A DNA stretch of 64,000 bases from positions 124,001 through 188,000 of the forward strand of contig NZ_WNJO01000001.1 of the NCBI RefSeq assembly GCF_009720675.1, written 5' to 3'. Every line of letters starts with the position of its first letter. The first letter of the stretch is position 1. The DNA is from Secundilactobacillus folii. GTDB taxonomy: Bacteria > Bacillota > Bacilli > Lactobacillales > Lactobacillaceae. A model generated the notes under the pieces. It was not told the DNA's origin. It was given only the letters and a program-made list of their open reading frames with translations, and ran no database searches. Position numbers and translations under genes: made by a program. Positions 1 to 5,447 of this stretch are shown in pieces.

Positions 1-1
1 C

Positions 2-973
2 AGTATGCTGGGTTATCAAGAGATCGTCACTAACCAGATCTATCACAATCAAATCATCGTTTTTTCTCAGCCAATTATTGGTAGCATCGGCATTTCTCAC
101 GATAGTTACGAATCAATATTACCGACTGCTAAGGGAATGGTGGTACGCGACGTCACTGATATTTCTAAGAATCGGCAGCGTTCACTTTCCCTAGATCAGT
201 TTTTGAAGCAGCATAATATTCCAGGAATTAGCGGCATCGATACCCGTCACCTGATTAGACAACTGCAGCAGACTGGTACGATCAAGGGCAGCATTGTTGA
301 CGTGGCCGATGACCATGCATTTGATCAGCTTCACGCGACCGTCCTGACCAACCAGCAGGTGGCCCAAGTTGCTACGCCGCGACCTTATCCGAACCCTAAT
401 CAGGGGTATAACGTGGTGGTGATTGATTTTGGGCTAAAACATGGGATCCTGCGACAGCTTTCAAAGCGCGACTGTAACGTGACGGTGTTGCCATGGGACG
501 CGACTGCTCAAGACGTGATCAACCTGGATCCAGACGGCGTGTTGCTGTCAACTGGCCCGGGTTCTCCATTGGACTTACCTGAGAGTGTTTTGGATATGAT
601 TCGCACGATTGAGGAACGAATCCCGCTTTTTGCCATTGGCTTGGGACATGAATTATTTGCACTGGCGAACGGGTCAGAAGTGAAAAAATTAAAGCTGGCC
701 CACCACGGAGCTAACCACCCAATTCGAACGATTATCACAAATGAAATTATTTACGCCACCGAAGGACAAGAATACGTCGTGGATCCCGATTCCGTTGATC
801 GCGACCGTTTAATTACCACCTATGTGGACTTAGTTGACGGCTCGATTCAGGGGTTACGGCACCGGGACTACCCAGCGTTTTCAGTGCAATTTTTCCCGGA
901 TGGGGCGCCAGGACCTAATGACTCCGTTGATTTATTTGATGAATTTATGGAGACTATGGGCACACGGGAGTGA
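2..973 (+). CDS. CarA-like carbamoyl-phosphate synthase small subunit, catalytic triad lost (5' end outside window)
   Basis: The reading frame is open to the window edge, so the N-terminus (about 40 residues by family comparison) is missing. Counting the Met at nt 5 as residue 1, residues 1-110 match the CarA N-terminal domain (GYQEI, SGIDTRHL) and about 135-322 match a class I glutamine amidotransferase domain (LSTGPGSP, HHGANHP). In working CarA the nucleophile lies in G-[IV]-C-L-G-H-Q; here the motif is AIGLGHE, with Gly212 in place of Cys. The partner motif GHPEASPGPHD is FFPDGAPGPND, so His becomes Phe297 and Glu becomes Asp299. All three triad residues are therefore replaced and glutaminase activity is not expected. 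The frame is otherwise intact. The CarB-like gene starts 4 bases after the stop, which implies translational coupling. Family membership is certain; the function is unknown. Confidence 0.85.
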   Translation, partial: SMLGYQEIVTNQIYHNQIIVFSQPIIGSIGISHDSYESILPTAKGMVVRDVTDISKNRQRSLSLDQFLKQHNIPGISGIDTRHLIRQLQQTGTIKGSIVDVADDHAFDQLHATVLTNQQVAQVATPRPYPNPNQGYNVVVIDFGLKHGILRQLSKRDCNVTVLPWDATAQDVINLDPDGVLLSTGPGSPLDLPESVLDMIRTIEERIPLFAIGLGHELFALANGSEVKKLKLAHHGANHPIRTIITNEIIYATEGQEYVVDPDSVDRDRLITTYVDLVDGSIQGLRHRDYPAFSVQFFPDGAPGPNDSVDLFDEFMETMGTRE

Positions 974-977
974 TGAG

Positions 978-3500
978 ATGGATAATGCAATTCAAAAAAT
1001 ACTCATAATCGGTGGTGGTCCCACTGAAATTGGTCACGAAACCGAGTTGGATGCAGCCTGTGTACAAGTGATTCAAGCCTTTAAGAAGCAGGGGATCAGA
1101 CCGCTCTTAATTGACAATAATCCATTTTCCTCAGCTCTGGAAAGTGTTCAGCCTACCAACATGTTTATTCAAGCGGTGACCGCTGATAACGTCCAACGGA
1201 TCATTGAAAAGGAACACCCAGACGCAATTTTGCCAACCGTTGGTGGTGTCTTGGCAATCAGTGTCATTCAAGAACTTCAAGAAAATGGGGTGCTGGCGGA
1301 TAACAACGTTCAGACCCTAGGCATTCCAGGCAATGCCATTATGGATATTAATAATCCCGACCGTCTCAATAGTGTTTTGAAGCATGTCGGCGTGCCGATA
1401 ATTGCTTCTGAAACGGTTGGCACTTTGGATGAAGCAGTCAACGTGGCTGCGTCAATTGGTTATCCGGTCATTGTTAAACCGATTGCGCCACGAATTGATA
1501 CGAACCGAATCCTGTGTGAAAGTGAAGCTGAATTGATCAGTGCTGTGACCCGGGGCTTTTCGTGGTCGCGGTTTAAACAGTGTGTGATCGAGCAAAGTAT
1601 CGTTGGTTATAAAGAAGTCGAACTAGTCTCTGTTCGCGACGCAATGGGCACGCAGGTCCTGATTGCCGGTCTGGAAAACATTGATCCAATCGGCATTCAT
1701 TCTGGGGATTCGATGGTGGTCACACCAACTTTGACTTTAAGTAACGCGGAATATCAGGAGTTACGCGATACTGCATTTGCCATCAACAATCAGTTTAATT
1801 TTACTGGTGTGGTTCACACGCACTTTGCGTTACAGACTAATCCGGAAAATTTTTACGTGACCAAGGTCACACCTTACAATGATCGCGGGACTTCACTAGC
1901 GGCTTGTGCAACTGGGTATCCAATTGCTTACGTCGCTGCTAACCTCTATTTAAATCAGCGCTTAACAGAAGTCCGCTTACCTGATATCTATCATTTTAAA
2001 CAAACCGCGTTATTGGAACCAAGTCTAGATCACGTGGTGGTTCGAATTCCGATTTGGCCGTTTGAAGATGTCCCCAATGCTGATCAGCACCTGGGAACGG
2101 TCATGAAATCCGTTGGCTCTACGATTGGCATTGGCCGAAGCACCGAAGAAGCAATCTTAAAAGCCATTCGTTCGTCACAGTTTAGCCCTAAGGATGAGCT
2201 GCCATCAATGAGTGATCTCAGTGATTCTCAGATCATCTCGCAATTGATTCATCCGCGGTCTAGCAGGATATTAGTGCTGCTTGAAGCACTTCGCCGTGGT
2301 TATCAAGTCGATGAGCTGACTGAATTAACCAAAATTGATCCGTTTTACTTTGTCATTTTACAGCATATTTTGGACGTTCGAGAAAACGTCCAATCTCATC
2401 CACTGGATCCGTTAGCTTTAAAGCAGGGTCGTTACTATGGTTTTGGTGATGGTATGATTGCTCGGATGTGGCAAGTAGACATTGATACCGTCCGCTCAAT
2501 AGGTCGCGGAAATAACATTTTACCCACTTATAAGGGAATTGAACCTTCTGCTGGAGAATTACTTAAATCACCAACCGGTTATTACAGCACCTTTGAATTT
2601 GAAAACGAAAGTGAACAGCTTTCTGATCACACCGTGCTCGTATTGGGACGTGGCGGCAATCAGTTGGGGCCTAACGCTTCGGCCGATTATTTCACTGCCG
2701 AGATGTTAAAGCAGTTGCATAAATCAGGTTATGAAACCGTTATTATGAATACTAACCCTAACGCGGGTTCATTAACTTCCATGCTGACGGATAAACAGAT
2801 CATTGATCCTGTTCAGTTGGGTGACATTATGAACGTGATCAATATGGAACATCCGGTTCGAATTTTTGTTCCTGGCAACCGACACTTTCTCACCCGCGAA
2901 TTACGTCGCCGAAAATTTCCGGTTTCGGTTTTACCACCCGATCAAGAAGGCCGCAGTGAACTGCTTACGGATCACGCTACCATTGGCTTAGATCTATTTG
3001 TCACTGAACATCACGTGGTGCCGATTTTAGCAAGTGACTTGCGTTCAGATGAAGGAATTGCAACCACTCTCGCACAGATCACGCTTATGCGAGCACCTGC
3101 CAGTGTGAATCCACAACAGTTGAGCCAATTGCTTGATCACGCCAATGAATATCTAGCTAGTCATAAACGAACTGGAATGGTGCAACTGCTGTATACAACT
3201 AATGGTTCTCAGCCCCCAGTTTTTGTGGGTGTCCGGCCAACCCGTTTGACGACGATTGCTTTTTTGAATAAGGTTACTGGGATCAACTGGGTCAGAATGC
3301 TGGTTCGACAAGCATTGGGAGAAATTGACGAGGATCTGATTGCTAAACTAGACATTGATATCCGCTCAGATCGTCGTTCCCAAATGCGAGGCACTTTCCC
3401 ATTCAAACAACTCCAGCTGCCAGATCAGCTCGGGCTGACGACTCAAGAAGTCGGCGCAAGGATCAGTTTTGGAACCTTAGATCCAGAACCTGATGAATAA
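978..3500 (+). CDS. CarB-like carbamoyl-phosphate synthase large subunit, shortened and lacking both ATP sites
   Basis: ATG at 978 follows a GGGAG site at 966-970, giving 840 residues against about 1060 for normal CarB. The architecture is still CarB: Rossmann-like start (IIGGGPTEIGHE), first ATP-grasp half with ENIDPIGIHSGDS, a linker with GYYSTFEFE, and a second half beginning VLVLGRGGNQLG. In the first half the Mg/ATP motif E-x-N-P-R is KVTPY (Lys296, Thr298, Tyr300), and the glycine-rich loop after PVIVKP is gone. In the second half E-V-N-P-R is GVRPT (Gly751, Arg753, Thr755) and the central ATP-grasp region is much shortened. The C-terminal allosteric (MGS-like) domain is absent; the protein ends at SFGTLDPEPDE. 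There are no internal stops or frameshifts over 2.5 kb, so it is probably a maintained protein with a new role rather than a decaying synthase. Confidence 0.87.
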   Translation: MDNAIQKILIIGGGPTEIGHETELDAACVQVIQAFKKQGIRPLLIDNNPFSSALESVQPTNMFIQAVTADNVQRIIEKEHPDAILPTVGGVLAISVIQELQENGVLADNNVQTLGIPGNAIMDINNPDRLNSVLKHVGVPIIASETVGTLDEAVNVAASIGYPVIVKPIAPRIDTNRILCESEAELISAVTRGFSWSRFKQCVIEQSIVGYKEVELVSVRDAMGTQVLIAGLENIDPIGIHSGDSMVVTPTLTLSNAEYQELRDTAFAINNQFNFTGVVHTHFALQTNPENFYVTKVTPYNDRGTSLAACATGYPIAYVAANLYLNQRLTEVRLPDIYHFKQTALLEPSLDHVVVRIPIWPFEDVPNADQHLGTVMKSVGSTIGIGRSTEEAILKAIRSSQFSPKDELPSMSDLSDSQIISQLIHPRSSRILVLLEALRRGYQVDELTELTKIDPFYFVILQHILDVRENVQSHPLDPLALKQGRYYGFGDGMIARMWQVDIDTVRSIGRGNNILPTYKGIEPSAGELLKSPTGYYSTFEFENESEQLSDHTVLVLGRGGNQLGPNASADYFTAEMLKQLHKSGYETVIMNTNPNAGSLTSMLTDKQIIDPVQLGDIMNVINMEHPVRIFVPGNRHFLTRELRRRKFPVSVLPPDQEGRSELLTDHATIGLDLFVTEHHVVPILASDLRSDEGIATTLAQITLMRAPASVNPQQLSQLLDHANEYLASHKRTGMVQLLYTTNGSQPPVFVGVRPTRLTTIAFLNKVTGINWVRMLVRQALGEIDEDLIAKLDIDIRSDRRSQMRGTFPFKQLQLPDQLGLTTQEVGARISFGTLDPEPDE

Positions 3501-3722: not shown

Positions 3723-5447
3723 TTAAGCCCGTTGATTTGTCGGACTGAGCCCTTCAACAAATTCACGATCAGGCGTGACATACAGGGTCCGCTGACCTTC
3801 GTAAATCACGAAGCCAGGCTTAGTGCCATTTGGTTTCCGAATTTTTTTAACCTGAACGTAATCTACCGGAACGGAACTCGATTGTCGTGCCTTGGAATAG
3901 TAGGCCGCAATGTTTGCAGCTTCCAAGAGTGTGGTCTGTGAGGGGTCTGGGTCGTGGACAATGACGTGTGATCCAGGCATATTTTTCACGTGTAGCCAAT
4001 AGTCGGTCTTAGCCGCACTGTGTAACGTCAGCTTTTCATTTTGTAGGTTATTCTTGCCAACTTCAATTTTTGTGCCATCGCTAGCCTGAAAAACTTCTGG
4101 CTTTGACACTTGATGTCGCTTCTTCTTTCCGCTACGATGCTGTTCATGATCTCGTAAATAACCGCCTTGCTGTAATTCCAGCTTAATATCGACCAGGTCC
4201 TTCGGCGCCGCCAGTTCGATTTGACTGCTGACATTTTCCAAGTAGTCGATCTCGGCGTTAGTTTTGGCCAATTGGTCATTGACGTAAGTGACCGAATTCT
4301 TCATTTTATTGTATCGCTTAAAGTATTTTTGGGCGTTTTGAGAAGGGCTGATCTGATTTGACAGGGCAATATTTAAAGGTTTTTCGTTTTCGTAAAAATT
4401 AGGTAACGTAATACTTGTCATACCGCGTTTAACCTGGGATAAATAGGTCATTAACAGTTCGCCTTTGATTCTAAATTCATCGGCTCCCTCTGCGGATTTT
4501 AAAGTTGATTGCAACTTCTTGAGCTTTGTCCGGTTTTTTTTCAGTTCGTTACGAACCACGTGAATCAGGGTACTGCCCTGTTGTTGAACCCGATCTCGTT
4601 CCGCACGGTCTTGATAATAAAAATCAAGCATGGCACTCAGCGAGTCAAAGGAACGGCTAGAAACTTCGTCTTGTTGGTAGGGAAAGGCGCTAAATGCTGT
4701 TTTGCCATTTGCTGCCGTGACTAAAGTCGGGTCCGGATGATTAAAACGTTCGAAAAAGTTTGAGAAATTTTGTTCAGGCTTTCCTGGTTGATGAAGGGCT
4801 TTAGCCAGTGCCAGCCCGGTATCCTGTCCTAATCCCTGATAATTATGTCGCAGTTCTTGAGCCAGGACGTCTTCATTTGGATAATCACGAACTAATTCAA
4901 CCACCCGTTCTTTTGCTTCTGGCTGAAAGGGGTCGATCAGATCCTGAGCCGGCGGATTAATATAGTGGCCGCCAGGCAATAATGTCCGGTAGCGGTTCTG
5001 ATCTGAACCAACGTGTTTAATAGCGTCCAGGATCGTCATCGAAGCCAAATCAACTAAAATCACGTTACTGTGACGAGCCATGATTTCGATGATCAACCGC
5101 AGAGCAACTTGGTCTCCCAGTTCATTTCGACTCGTAAAGTCGAGGTAAACGACCCGGTCATTTGCGGCTTGACTAACTGTTGTCAGGATCGCACCACTCA
5201 GATACTTACGCATCATCATGGTGTAGTTAGTTGGCGTTGCCGGATTCACATAGGGAATATCCGTAATTTGAATACGCGCAAAGGTTGGGTTGGCTGATAA
5301 TAATAGGGGCAAGCTCTTATGATTTGCCCGAATGGTTAAAATAACTTCATTATTATAAGGCTGATTGATTTTTGATACCCGACCACCATTAAGTTGCCGA
5401 TCAAGTTCACCGACCATTGCGTGGGTGAATGCACCATCAAATGACAT
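3723..5447 (-). CDS. rqcH: RqcH/NFACT family ribosome quality-control protein
   Basis: 574 residues with the NFACT layout: the N-terminal domain starts MSFDGAFTHAMVGEL, a coiled-coil middle (about 280-420) is rich in Lys, Glu and Leu, and the NFACT-R domain (about 445-560) carries MPGSHVIVHDP and YYSKARQSS. Bacterial RqcH binds the 50S subunit of stalled ribosomes and adds C-terminal alanine tails to the trapped peptide; older annotations call the family fibronectin-binding protein (FbpA). ATG is preceded by AAGGAAGTGA. The gene is monocistronic on the minus strand and converges with the carB-like gene. The family assignment is firm; the quality-control role is taken from characterised Bacillus and eukaryotic relatives. 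Confidence 0.93.
   Translation of the reverse strand: MSFDGAFTHAMVGELDRQLNGGRVSKINQPYNNEVILTIRANHKSLPLLLSANPTFARIQITDIPYVNPATPTNYTMMMRKYLSGAILTTVSQAANDRVVYLDFTSRNELGDQVALRLIIEIMARHSNVILVDLASMTILDAIKHVGSDQNRYRTLLPGGHYINPPAQDLIDPFQPEAKERVVELVRDYPNEDVLAQELRHNYQGLGQDTGLALAKALHQPGKPEQNFSNFFERFNHPDPTLVTAANGKTAFSAFPYQQDEVSSRSFDSLSAMLDFYYQDRAERDRVQQQGSTLIHVVRNELKKNRTKLKKLQSTLKSAEGADEFRIKGELLMTYLSQVKRGMTSITLPNFYENEKPLNIALSNQISPSQNAQKYFKRYNKMKNSVTYVNDQLAKTNAEIDYLENVSSQIELAAPKDLVDIKLELQQGGYLRDHEQHRSGKKKRHQVSKPEVFQASDGTKIEVGKNNLQNEKLTLHSAAKTDYWLHVKNMPGSHVIVHDPDPSQTTLLEAANIAAYYSKARQSSSVPVDYVQVKKIRKPNGTKPGFVIYEGQRTLYVTPDREFVEGLSPTNQRA

Follow-up and report, generated by a model that had tools for sequence, protein, structure and literature searches.

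The window, the 64,000-nt stretch of Secundilactobacillus folii DNA that was analysed, opens with two genes resembling those for the small and large subunits of carbamoyl-phosphate synthase (CPS), and the locus raises the question of why a synthase whose catalytic residues appear to be gone has been kept. We refer to the genes as carA´ and carB´ and give the coordinates of their features in Table 1.

A CPS-like gene pair with altered catalytic sites

carA´ starts 98 bases ahead of window base 1 (contig C1:123903) and encodes 356 aa at full length; its frame is uninterrupted, and a gap of 4 bases separates it from carB´. Both folds are recognised by Pfam and NCBIfam models, in agreement with the sequence-only reading of this DNA, which had described an unbroken, coupled CarA-CarB pair. 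The 322 aa of CarA´ inside the window score above two CPS small-subunit cut-offs (390.4 vs 221 and 319.3 vs 307.35). For CarB´ the score is 520.6 bits vs the TIGR01369 cut-off of 1027, with a match that spans only positions 4-635 of 1052. Structures were predicted for the two subunits separately. The CarB´ model matched E. coli CarB (1jdb_B) with a TM-score of 0.90 (Foldseek, query-normalised), and the CarA´ model was weak overall (pTM 0.53), its top Foldseek match being 1cs0_B with an E-value of 3.8e-38 and a TM-score of just 0.52. A check for a separate intact carAB in the same genome found one on contig C10.

Table 1. Features of the carA´B´ locus (window positions; substitutions in E. coli numbering, residue numbers in brackets as in CarA´ and CarB´).
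Feature	Position	Strand	Basis or conservation
carA´, pseudo small subunit	1..973	+	3´ 973 bases; Pfam CPSase_sm_chain and GATase
Remodelled nucleophile elbow of CarA´ glutaminase	638..652	+	Cys269>Gly, Gln273>Glu
CarA´ Cys269>Gly (residue 246)	codon 638-640	+	Gly in 51/51 main-clade copies
CarA´ Gln273>Glu (residue 250)	codon 650-652	+	Glu in 50/51 main-clade copies
CarA´ His353>Phe (residue 331) and position 355 Asp (residue 333)	893..901	+	Residue comparison
carB´, pseudo large subunit, 840 aa	978..3500	+	Foldseek and family models
CarB´ Gly179>Arg, former Gly-rich loop (residue 177)	1506..1508	+	Arg in 48/50 main-clade copies
K-loop region kept in ATP-grasp 1, ENIDPIGIHSGDS (E. coli 235-247)	1674..1712	+	Alignment
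Lost metal/phosphate ligands, CarB´ ATP-grasp 1	1815..1877	+	N283, E299, N301, R303 replaced
CarB´ N283>H	1815-1817	+	H in 46/50 main-clade copies
CarB´ E299>K	1863-1865	+	K in 46/50, R in 4/50 main-clade copies
CarB´ N301>T	1869-1871	+	T in 20, S in 15, N kept in 6 of 50 main-clade copies
CarB´ R303>Y	1875-1877	+	Y in 40/50 main-clade copies
Shrunken second synthetase half (residues 546-840)	2613..3497	+	Models, Foldseek, alignment
rqcH-like gene	3723..5447	-	Flanks the ancestral pyr operon on its right, by locus order

Substitutions in the window copies were called against the true CPS of the same genome and numbered as in E. coli, at positions catalytic in the E. coli enzyme. CarA´ carries C269G, Q273E, H353F and E355D, and the triad reads G-F-D. 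Cys269 and Gln273 are present in 33/33 intact-type CarA copies (excluding G024 and G405, described below), and Cys269 is retained in one of 64 dead-locus copies, which is without the His and the Glu. None of the 51 main-clade CarA´ copies retains His353. Asp occupies position 355 in 25 of 34 intact-type rows as well (a tally that includes G405, later found dead), so only the His change is telling in this region. A role as a glutamine sensor, one of several put forward earlier, loses ground because Q273 and N311, both glutamine contacts, are also altered in the main clade (Q273E in 50/51 copies, N311 kept in only 2/51).

In ATP-grasp 1, the window CarB´ shows R129P, R169K, N283H, Q285H, E299K, N301T and R303Y and has lost the Gly-loop; it retains E215, R222, D223, E235, G241, H243, D246 and S247. 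Within the K-loop, E235, D246 and S247 are conserved in 50/50 main-clade copies, G241 in 48/50 and H243 in 47/50. The second ATP-grasp is shrunken on top of its mutations, with R675 and R715 deleted (both positions are gaps in 50/50 main-clade copies) and E761, H788, Q829, E841, N843 and R845 replaced, and there is no MGS-like allosteric domain. The earlier claim that all active sites had been lost stands for the triad and in so far as both ATP-grasp halves are hit, but not for the retained residues of ATP-grasp 1. That exactly the catalytic residues had been removed was too strong a statement: the catalytic sites are hit, but many other invariant positions have changed too. Enrichment of losses at catalytic sites (p < 0.05, uncorrected) was seen in 6 of the 14 rows for CarB and in 2 of the 7 for CarA, and their concentration exactly at catalytic residues is only weakly supported. 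A passage of PMC4655335 places the human K-loop at residues 654-662, the correspondence with CarB´ being set by alignment offset.

Family-wide retention under purifying selection

Of 60 Lactobacillaceae genomes sampled, 52 carried dead pairs, representing 35 of 40 genera; the carB´ frame proved open at 63 of the 64 dead loci that were fetched, in 34 genera. In the closest pair of sequences, dN/dS is 0.011 for CarA´ and 0.021 for CarB´, values far from those of decay. CarA´ has a median dN of 0.111 vs 0.193 for true CarA from the same 6 genomes, and CarB´, with a median dN of 0.237, evolves more quickly than true CarB (0.154). The pair shows neither broken frames nor relaxed selection, the hallmarks of a pseudogene, and displays those of a pseudoenzyme in its sequences: a kept fold, lost catalytic residues and purifying selection. 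The open frames across the family, the low dN/dS and the separate intact carAB bear out the proposal of the sequence-only reading that this is a retained, repurposed pseudo-enzyme rather than a product of decay. To judge from the residues, the pair is almost certainly non-catalytic and conserved.

The pair at the site of the ancestral pyrimidine operon

Among the 52 dead-pair loci, rluD was upstream in 50 and pyrR in 43, and rqcH lay inside the fetched stretch in 37; the right-hand neighbour of carB´ in the window is rqcH-like. An active-type pyr operon is found at the same site in 7 of the 60 genomes and in other Lactobacillales families, and one genome of the 60 (G042) lacks a dead pair and has no ancestral operon mapped. 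The dead-pair site was shown, on comparison of these sequences, to be that of the ancestral pyr operon. By the same kind of comparison, pyrB, pyrC, pyrD, pyrF, pyrE and mostly pyrP are gone from it, with carAB left and, in most loci, pyrR. In a set of 80 named loci, the best 80 of 229 relatives, pyrR is immediately 5´ of the pair in 75, and the five without adjacent pyrR are all from Paucilactobacillus. Nine of the 52 loci showed no pyrR next to the pair; in one of them, G046, the pair sits at the end of a contig, and pyrR, together with the end of pyrP, closes another contig. The copy at the locus in G024 was considered as an intact synthase (1327 bits) and rejected when the residue check showed it to be dead.

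Cys269>Gly, R129>P and the loss of E299 were also observed in 4/4 genomes, of one shared ancestry, from one genus of another family; G405, from outside Lactobacillaceae, was at first classed as intact-type and was found dead by a later residue check. As judged from its sequences, this other-family genus is one that reached the dead-pair state independently. A concatenated CarA and CarB tree united 18 dead lactobacillar rows and G024 with 100% support, the rows being long, and a neighbour-gene tree, built after leaving out 13 rows from two genera, interleaved dead and intact loci with weak deep support. For the tree with outgroup CarA, 12 dead rows were dropped beforehand, and 12 of 23 fetched outgroup proteins were extracted, one of them left out of the tree; outgroup row L219 belongs to Lactobacillaceae g12, that is, to the same family rather than another.

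Candidate partners

A full-length intact CarB is missing from 15 of the 60 genomes (G253, with an intact-type CarB split across two frames, is outside the 15), and the dead pair is kept in 15/15. True CPS is therefore not its general partner, and the suggestion that the pair regulates the genuine CPS fails as a general role. The pair is likewise kept in 12/12 of the genomes, among the 60, that lack ATCase (no PyrB over the cut-off). Among 397 screened genomes, four (G031, G246, G299 and G330; residues and locus checked) keep the pair with PyrR undetected, so PyrR is not the sole partner in every lineage, and PyrR as the only partner everywhere was rejected. No intact CPS, ATCase or PyrR was detected in G031 (87% complete), and the three further PyrR-less genomes are also without intact CarB.

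The PyrR of the locus is the only PyrR in the genome of the window, and a leader resembling a PyrR site precedes pyrBC elsewhere in that genome (47.1 bits, cut-off 54). Of the six partial comparisons run against each control gene, the correlation between CarB´ and PyrR distances was the strongest, with partial r of 0.80 and 0.77 (20 loci with non-independent rows, no significance test). At the thresholds used, we found no positions that set the locus PyrR apart from ordinary PyrR. The PyrR leader (RF00515) was matched at the gathering score in 0 of 10 pair-bearing loci, one true operon (L121) also being without a match; the search over 12 loci gave a single match, inside a true pyr operon, and no leader was seen at E-values up to 5 in L007, L070 and L081.

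A passage of PMC3582564 reports that pyr control by PyrR2 of L. plantarum responds to inorganic carbon, and one of PMC7911632 gives lp_1782 as pyrR2 and lp_2704 as pyrR1. In one Lactiplantibacillus, the PyrR copies of the two loci are 64.6% identical, and by elimination the one directly upstream of the pair is PyrR2. PyrR2 is the regulator itself, and carA´B´ is the pair downstream of it, unmentioned in the passages on PyrR2 from these two papers. Our literature search turned up nothing on expression, ligand binding or a phenotype of the pair, and a search by locus tag yielded nothing either. A proteome of Limosilactobacillus reuteri reports a "carbamoyl-phosphate synthase large chain", the copy not being stated.

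Possible roles of CarA´B´

The catalytic sites are lost, yet the pair is strongly preserved, and it is therefore probably a sensor or regulator that is still labelled an enzyme in databases. We give a probability of roughly one half to the reading that CarA´B´ serves pyrimidine control as a ligand sensor or a regulator. In this scheme, the pyr-operon CPS of lactobacilli would have become a non-catalytic ligand-binding complex in which CarA´ and CarB´ presumably still assemble. The Mg/triphosphate ligands have given way to the basic residues Arg179, His283 and Lys299, with the K-loop and its flanks kept, and ATP-grasp 1 may bind, but not convert, a nucleotide or some other metabolite that is phosphorylated or anionic, possibly together with bicarbonate and K+. 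The ligand state could then be relayed by protein contact, most probably to PyrR acting in trans on the pyr genes, perhaps with a link to PyrR2 in Lactiplantibacillus; PyrR as a direct partner is a tentative proposal. More speculative is a family-wide, convergent pseudo-CPS that binds its old ligands (bicarbonate, K+, a nucleotide or a carbamoyl-phosphate-like anion) without turnover and reports to a pyrimidine regulator, in L. plantarum as the missing inorganic-carbon sensor behind PyrR2.

The pair could instead be a new enzyme with an activity unrelated to carbamoyl phosphate and a pocket remodelled around Gly246 and Glu250 of CarA´ and Lys296, Arg177 and His280 of CarB´, and the near fixation of the replacing residues in the main clade is what a new active site would need. 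Retention in G031 and in the three other genomes without PyrR or intact CarB fits this too, but no new catalytic motif was seen, the Mg ligand Glu299 has become Lys or Arg in 50/50 main-clade copies and the second ATP-grasp is gutted. Other lineages carry different replacements at the same sites, and loss of catalysis therefore fits better than the gain of one reaction; we regard a new enzyme as unlikely. An equally doubtful alternative is a regulatory or scaffold subunit of a pyrimidine-independent complex, for example with true CPS, carbamoyltransferases or an unlinked target. Although the genomes that keep the pair without detectable PyrR or without PyrB over the cut-off would be explained, the linkage to pyrR at most loci speaks against it, as does, for true CPS, retention in all genomes without full-length intact CarB.

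Slow decay of a redundant CPS copy, a pseudogene in progress, could account for the many changes at non-catalytic invariant positions and for CarB´ being fragmented in one assembly (G013), shortened to 643 aa in G035 and read in frames of 661-668 aa in genus g10. It is highly improbable against the near-universal open frames, the dN/dS of the closest pair, the slower evolution of CarA´ than of true CarA, the fixed novel residues and the separate second case in another family. Least probable of all is a still-active, ammonia-dependent synthetase: a pair that had lost nothing but the glutaminase Cys would resemble CPS1-type enzymes (as described in part of PMC4655335) and the outlying copy G034 keeps the checked ATP-grasp 1 residues, but the metal/phosphate ligands are lost in both main-clade ATP-grasp sites, and R675 and R715 fall in gaps.

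Relation to known systems and implications

The glutamine-dependent CPS, CarA/CarB (PyrAA/PyrAB; TIGR01368, TIGR01369), has the same fold, gene pair and ancestral locus as CarA´B´, and the domains of both run in the same order as far as the second synthetase half. Unlike CarA/CarB, CarA´B´ is without the nucleophile, the Mg/ATP ligands and the allosteric domain, its second ATP-grasp is shrunken and its CarB´ falls below the TIGR01369 cut-off. In human CPS1, which is ammonia-dependent, the S2 domain is described as an inactive glutaminase (a passage of PMC4655335), and both systems carry a dead glutaminase domain; however, CPS1 keeps both phosphorylation domains and the allosteric domain, which in CarA´B´ are dead or absent. 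Pseudoenzymes generally combine a conserved fold and lost catalysis with a regulatory role, and CarA´B´ shares their sequence hallmarks but differs from typical cases in being a whole two-subunit ATP-grasp/GATase complex, with three sites inactivated, that is kept family-wide. Within the collection of papers searched, partly by title, no paper on a CPS pseudoenzyme in lactobacilli was found.

The window CarA´ passes two curated models for the working small subunit, and in 15 of the 60 genomes there is no further full-length CarB of intact type. Food and gut bacteria can therefore be misannotated, and their metabolic models and predicted auxotrophies can be in error. The second case in another family provides a natural replicate of an ATP-grasp/amidotransferase complex that loses catalysis yet is kept. 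For L. plantarum, the questions of why a second PyrR ties inorganic carbon to pyrimidine genes, and of whether the reported phenotype is due to PyrR2 or to the downstream pair, become testable; if the proposed carbon-sensing role is true, the pair would be part of the cause of CO2-dependent growth.

A carbamoyl-phosphate synthase pair predicted to be catalytically dead

Profile searches identified both proteins at the start of the window as carbamoyl-phosphate synthase (CPS) subunits, and the coordinates of the genes, here carA´ and carB´, bore out the coupled pair with open frames and a 4-base gap described in the sequence-only reading. That reading had also raised the matter of a separate intact carAB, and one was found in the same genome, on contig C10. 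Relative to this true CarA, CarA´ carries Cys269>Gly, Gln273>Glu and His353>Phe (E. coli numbering), as well as Asp at 355, a change with little meaning because Asp is present in 25 of the 34 rows of the intact-type tally. Relative to the true CarB, and with E. coli numbering taken from the alignment, CarB´ carries Arg129>Pro, Arg169>Lys, Asn283>His, Gln285>His, Glu299>Lys, Asn301>Thr and Arg303>Tyr; its Gly-rich loop is gone, and the second half of the protein has deletions at Arg675 and Arg715 and other residues at the metal-ligand positions. We take these CarA and CarB positions to be catalytic. The replacements are near-fixed in the main clade of dead lactobacillar copies: Gly at 269 (51/51) and Glu at 273 (50/51) in CarA´, and Arg at 179 (48/50), His at 283 (46/50) and Lys or Arg at 299 (50/50) in CarB´, for which the fragmented G013 copy was excluded. 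Residues are more varied in the 13 copies outside this clade.

The dead CarA´ of the window exceeds two NCBIfam cut-offs (NF009475 and TIGR01368), so automatic annotation would label it a working glutamine-hydrolysing subunit. The intact CarB of the window's genome (locus L008), like the true CarB proteins in G000, G001, G002, G004, G005 and G007 and the second CarB copies of G331, G083 and G055, matches the family profile only to ~936-971 of 1052, which suggests that this active-type lineage may have a divergent allosteric domain.

Features located in the window, elsewhere in its genome and in other lactobacillar genomes
Feature	Location	Size	Remarks
carA-like gene	window 1-973 (3´ 973 bases); start C1:123903, 98 bases before window	356 codons	
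carB-like gene	window 978-3500	840 codons	GGGAG motif before ATG
Transposase-like ORFs (by eye)	L008:8773-10143		adjoin intact carAB of the window's genome, small contig
Intact-type CarB, two overlapping frames	G253:C1:765001-767900	676 + 355 aa	
Intact-type CarB, one internal TAG	G042:C1:715884-719021 (L119)	853 + 207 aa	
G024 CPS pair, in the locus pyrR-pyrP-carA-carB	L239:6472-10754	full length	1327 bits

Purifying selection on the pair

The earlier reading had weighed simple decay as an explanation, and dN/dS values far below 1 speak against it: for the closest pair of the genus we obtained 0.011 for CarA´ and 0.021 for CarB´, compared with 0.008 for PyrR, 0.050 for LspA and 0.020 each for RluD and Fhs, most other genome pairs being saturated in dS. 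In the six genomes where both forms were comparable, CarA´ had a median dN of 0.111 and true CarA one of 0.193; the values for CarB´ and true CarB were 0.237 and 0.154. Nor are the orthologues full of stops. Of the 64 dead loci fetched, 63 have an uninterrupted carB´ frame (34 genera), the sole broken frame belonging to the low-quality assembly G013; the open frame of G035 stops at 643 aa. The case for a pair that is dead and selected for is strong.

Distribution and retention without CPS, ATCase or PyrR

A query with the divergent C-terminal part matched all 15 Secundilactobacillus genomes, the G013 copy being fragmented, and 226 of 397 Lactobacillaceae genomes, an undercount since copies that have diverged further escape it. 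In a 60-genome set spanning the 40 sampled genera, a census combining the CPS large-chain profile with residue checks of fetched copies found the dead pair in 52 genomes (51 plus G024) and in at least one genome of 35 genera. Seven genomes have an intact-type operon at the rluD site (G025, G026, G038, G043, G044, G063 and G257), and one more, G042, is without a dead copy, its site being left out of the seven. Among the 52 dead loci, rluD lies upstream in 50 and pyrR in 43, and rqcH falls inside the fetched stretch in 37. In the best 80 of 229 relatives, pyrR is directly upstream in 75 of the 80 named loci, the exceptions being the five Paucilactobacillus among them. CarB´ is extremely reduced in genus g10 (G023, locus L103; G061; G091; G117), with frames of 661-668 aa scoring 89-95 bits; the G023 copy still has CarA´ and a divergent PyrR alongside.

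All 15 of the 60 genomes with no full-length intact CarB carry the dead pair (14 with no CarB over the cut-off, plus G046, in which the only one over it is dead). We left G253 out of the 15 because its intact-type CarB is split over two frames, possibly a frameshift or a split gene. The pair is likewise present in all 12 of the 60 genomes with no PyrB over the cut-off. PyrR was undetected in 11 of 397 genomes at E up to 1e-12; outside genus g29 these are G031, G246, G299 and G330. All four have a pair with Cys269>Gly beside rluD and lack an intact CarB. Retention in all of these genomes indicates that the pair persists where true CPS, ATCase and even PyrR have gone, with the caveat that G031 is only 87% complete. 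In g29, PyrR is absent from all seven sampled genomes; in the five near-complete ones the only CarB matches lie over the cut-off, with none below it and hence no dead pair, and the other two, 65-68% complete, gave no CarB match.

A retained half-site

The claim that all metal and ATP motifs are replaced held for E299, R303, R675 and R715, which are lost, but not for R222, D223, E235, D246 and S247, which are invariant in all 50 main-clade CarB´ copies; E215 and G241 are kept in 48 and H243 in 47. The pattern is less regular outside the main clade, where 9 of 13 copies retain H243 and the three PyrR-less g37 genomes have all lost it. By alignment offset, the retained stretch matches the K-loop of human CPS1, which holds a potassium ion and touches the bound nucleotide, Arg721 being a conserved arginine that contacts phosphate (PMC4655335). 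R303, the Arg721 equivalent by offset, is lost in the main clade. There, then, the part of the bicarbonate site that faces K+ and the nucleotide persists, and the Mg-triphosphate side has turned basic. The AlphaFold model of CarB´ (mean pLDDT 85.4, pTM 0.88) matched E. coli CarB with a Foldseek TM of 0.90; the CarA´ model was weaker (pTM 0.53).

A possible link to pyrimidine control

Only one PyrR is encoded in the window's genome, in the carA´B´ cluster, the other match being only 29% identical; ahead of pyrBC, on a different contig, a leader resembling a PyrR site scored 47.1 bits (E 0.0026), below the 54-bit cut-off. Each of the three Lactiplantibacillus genomes in the 60-genome set encodes two PyrR (64.6% identical in G331), one heading the true pyr operon and the other the dead pair. 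Deletion of pyrR2 reportedly gives a high-CO2-requiring phenotype. In L. plantarum, pyrR1 belongs to the pyr cluster lp_2697-2704, whereas lp_1782 is pyrR2 (PMC7911632); the operon responds to inorganic carbon through control by PyrR2 (PMC3582564). By elimination, the PyrR of the dead-pair locus would be PyrR2.

The most economical reading, to which we give a probability of about 0.5, is that carA´B´ would act as a ligand-sensing regulator in the PyrR circuit. This draws on the linkage, the half binding site kept in the main clade and a weak distance correlation, and is weakened by the PyrR-less genomes that keep the pair and by the fact that PyrR at dead-pair loci looks ordinary. No report of such a dead CPS pair was found in the accessible parts of the open-access literature, subscription papers falling mostly outside the search.

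A second case in another family

In genus g49 of f2, a second Lactobacillales family, the only CPS-like large chain per genome (E up to 1e-60) scores low in G405, G439, G467 and G521 (1221, 1152, 1156 and 543 bits); G418 of this genus gave none at that threshold. All four pairs (loci L251, L269, L270 and L271) have Cys269>Gly, His353>Asn/Gln and R129>Pro and have lost E299 and R303; R222 and E235 are kept in all four, and E215, H243, D246 and S247 in three. With their only CPS-like large chain dead, carbamoyl phosphate must come from elsewhere. The pair sits inside an otherwise complete pyr operon in G405 and G521 and a nearly complete one, with no pyrB seen, in G439 and G467. The four genomes, belonging to one genus, count as one event, and in the concatenated tree G405 joins another outgroup (93%) rather than the lactobacillar dead clade, which points to an independent origin of the g49 pair.

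Origin from the ancestral pyr operon

In other Lactobacillales families and in the seven intact genomes, the rluD site holds pyrR-(pyrP)-pyrB-pyrC-carA-carB-(one ORF in some)-pyrD-pyrF-pyrE, some operons being without single genes, with rqcH following wherever the fetched stretch extended to it. At some dead pairs, pyrR and carA´ are separated by a putative uracil-permease-like gene, which has a matching place in intact operons. The shared rluD site and this leftover gene indicate that the dead pair is a remnant of the old operon, stripped of pyrB, pyrC, pyrD, pyrF, pyrE and mostly pyrP. In the CarA tree, dead copies group with those from other families and from the intact-locus genome G025, separate from active copies sampled at other sites, and form one side of a branch with 78/89 support. 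The concatenated tree unites the dead rows with G024 (100%) and places them next to those from the intact loci in G025, G026, G063 and G038, with weak support (71%). Inactivation within Lactobacillaceae may have occurred once or several times: long branches are present, and in a neighbor-gene tree dead and intact loci are interleaved.

The G024 pair has catalytic residues changed at all three sites, with the rest well conserved: C269G, Q273E and H353D in CarA, and R129H, N283S, Q285H, E299A, Q829K, E841A and R845N in CarB. A second, intact-type CPS copy lies elsewhere in this genome. The G024 pair is at an early stage of inactivation, an intermediate for studying the transition from active to dead CPS.
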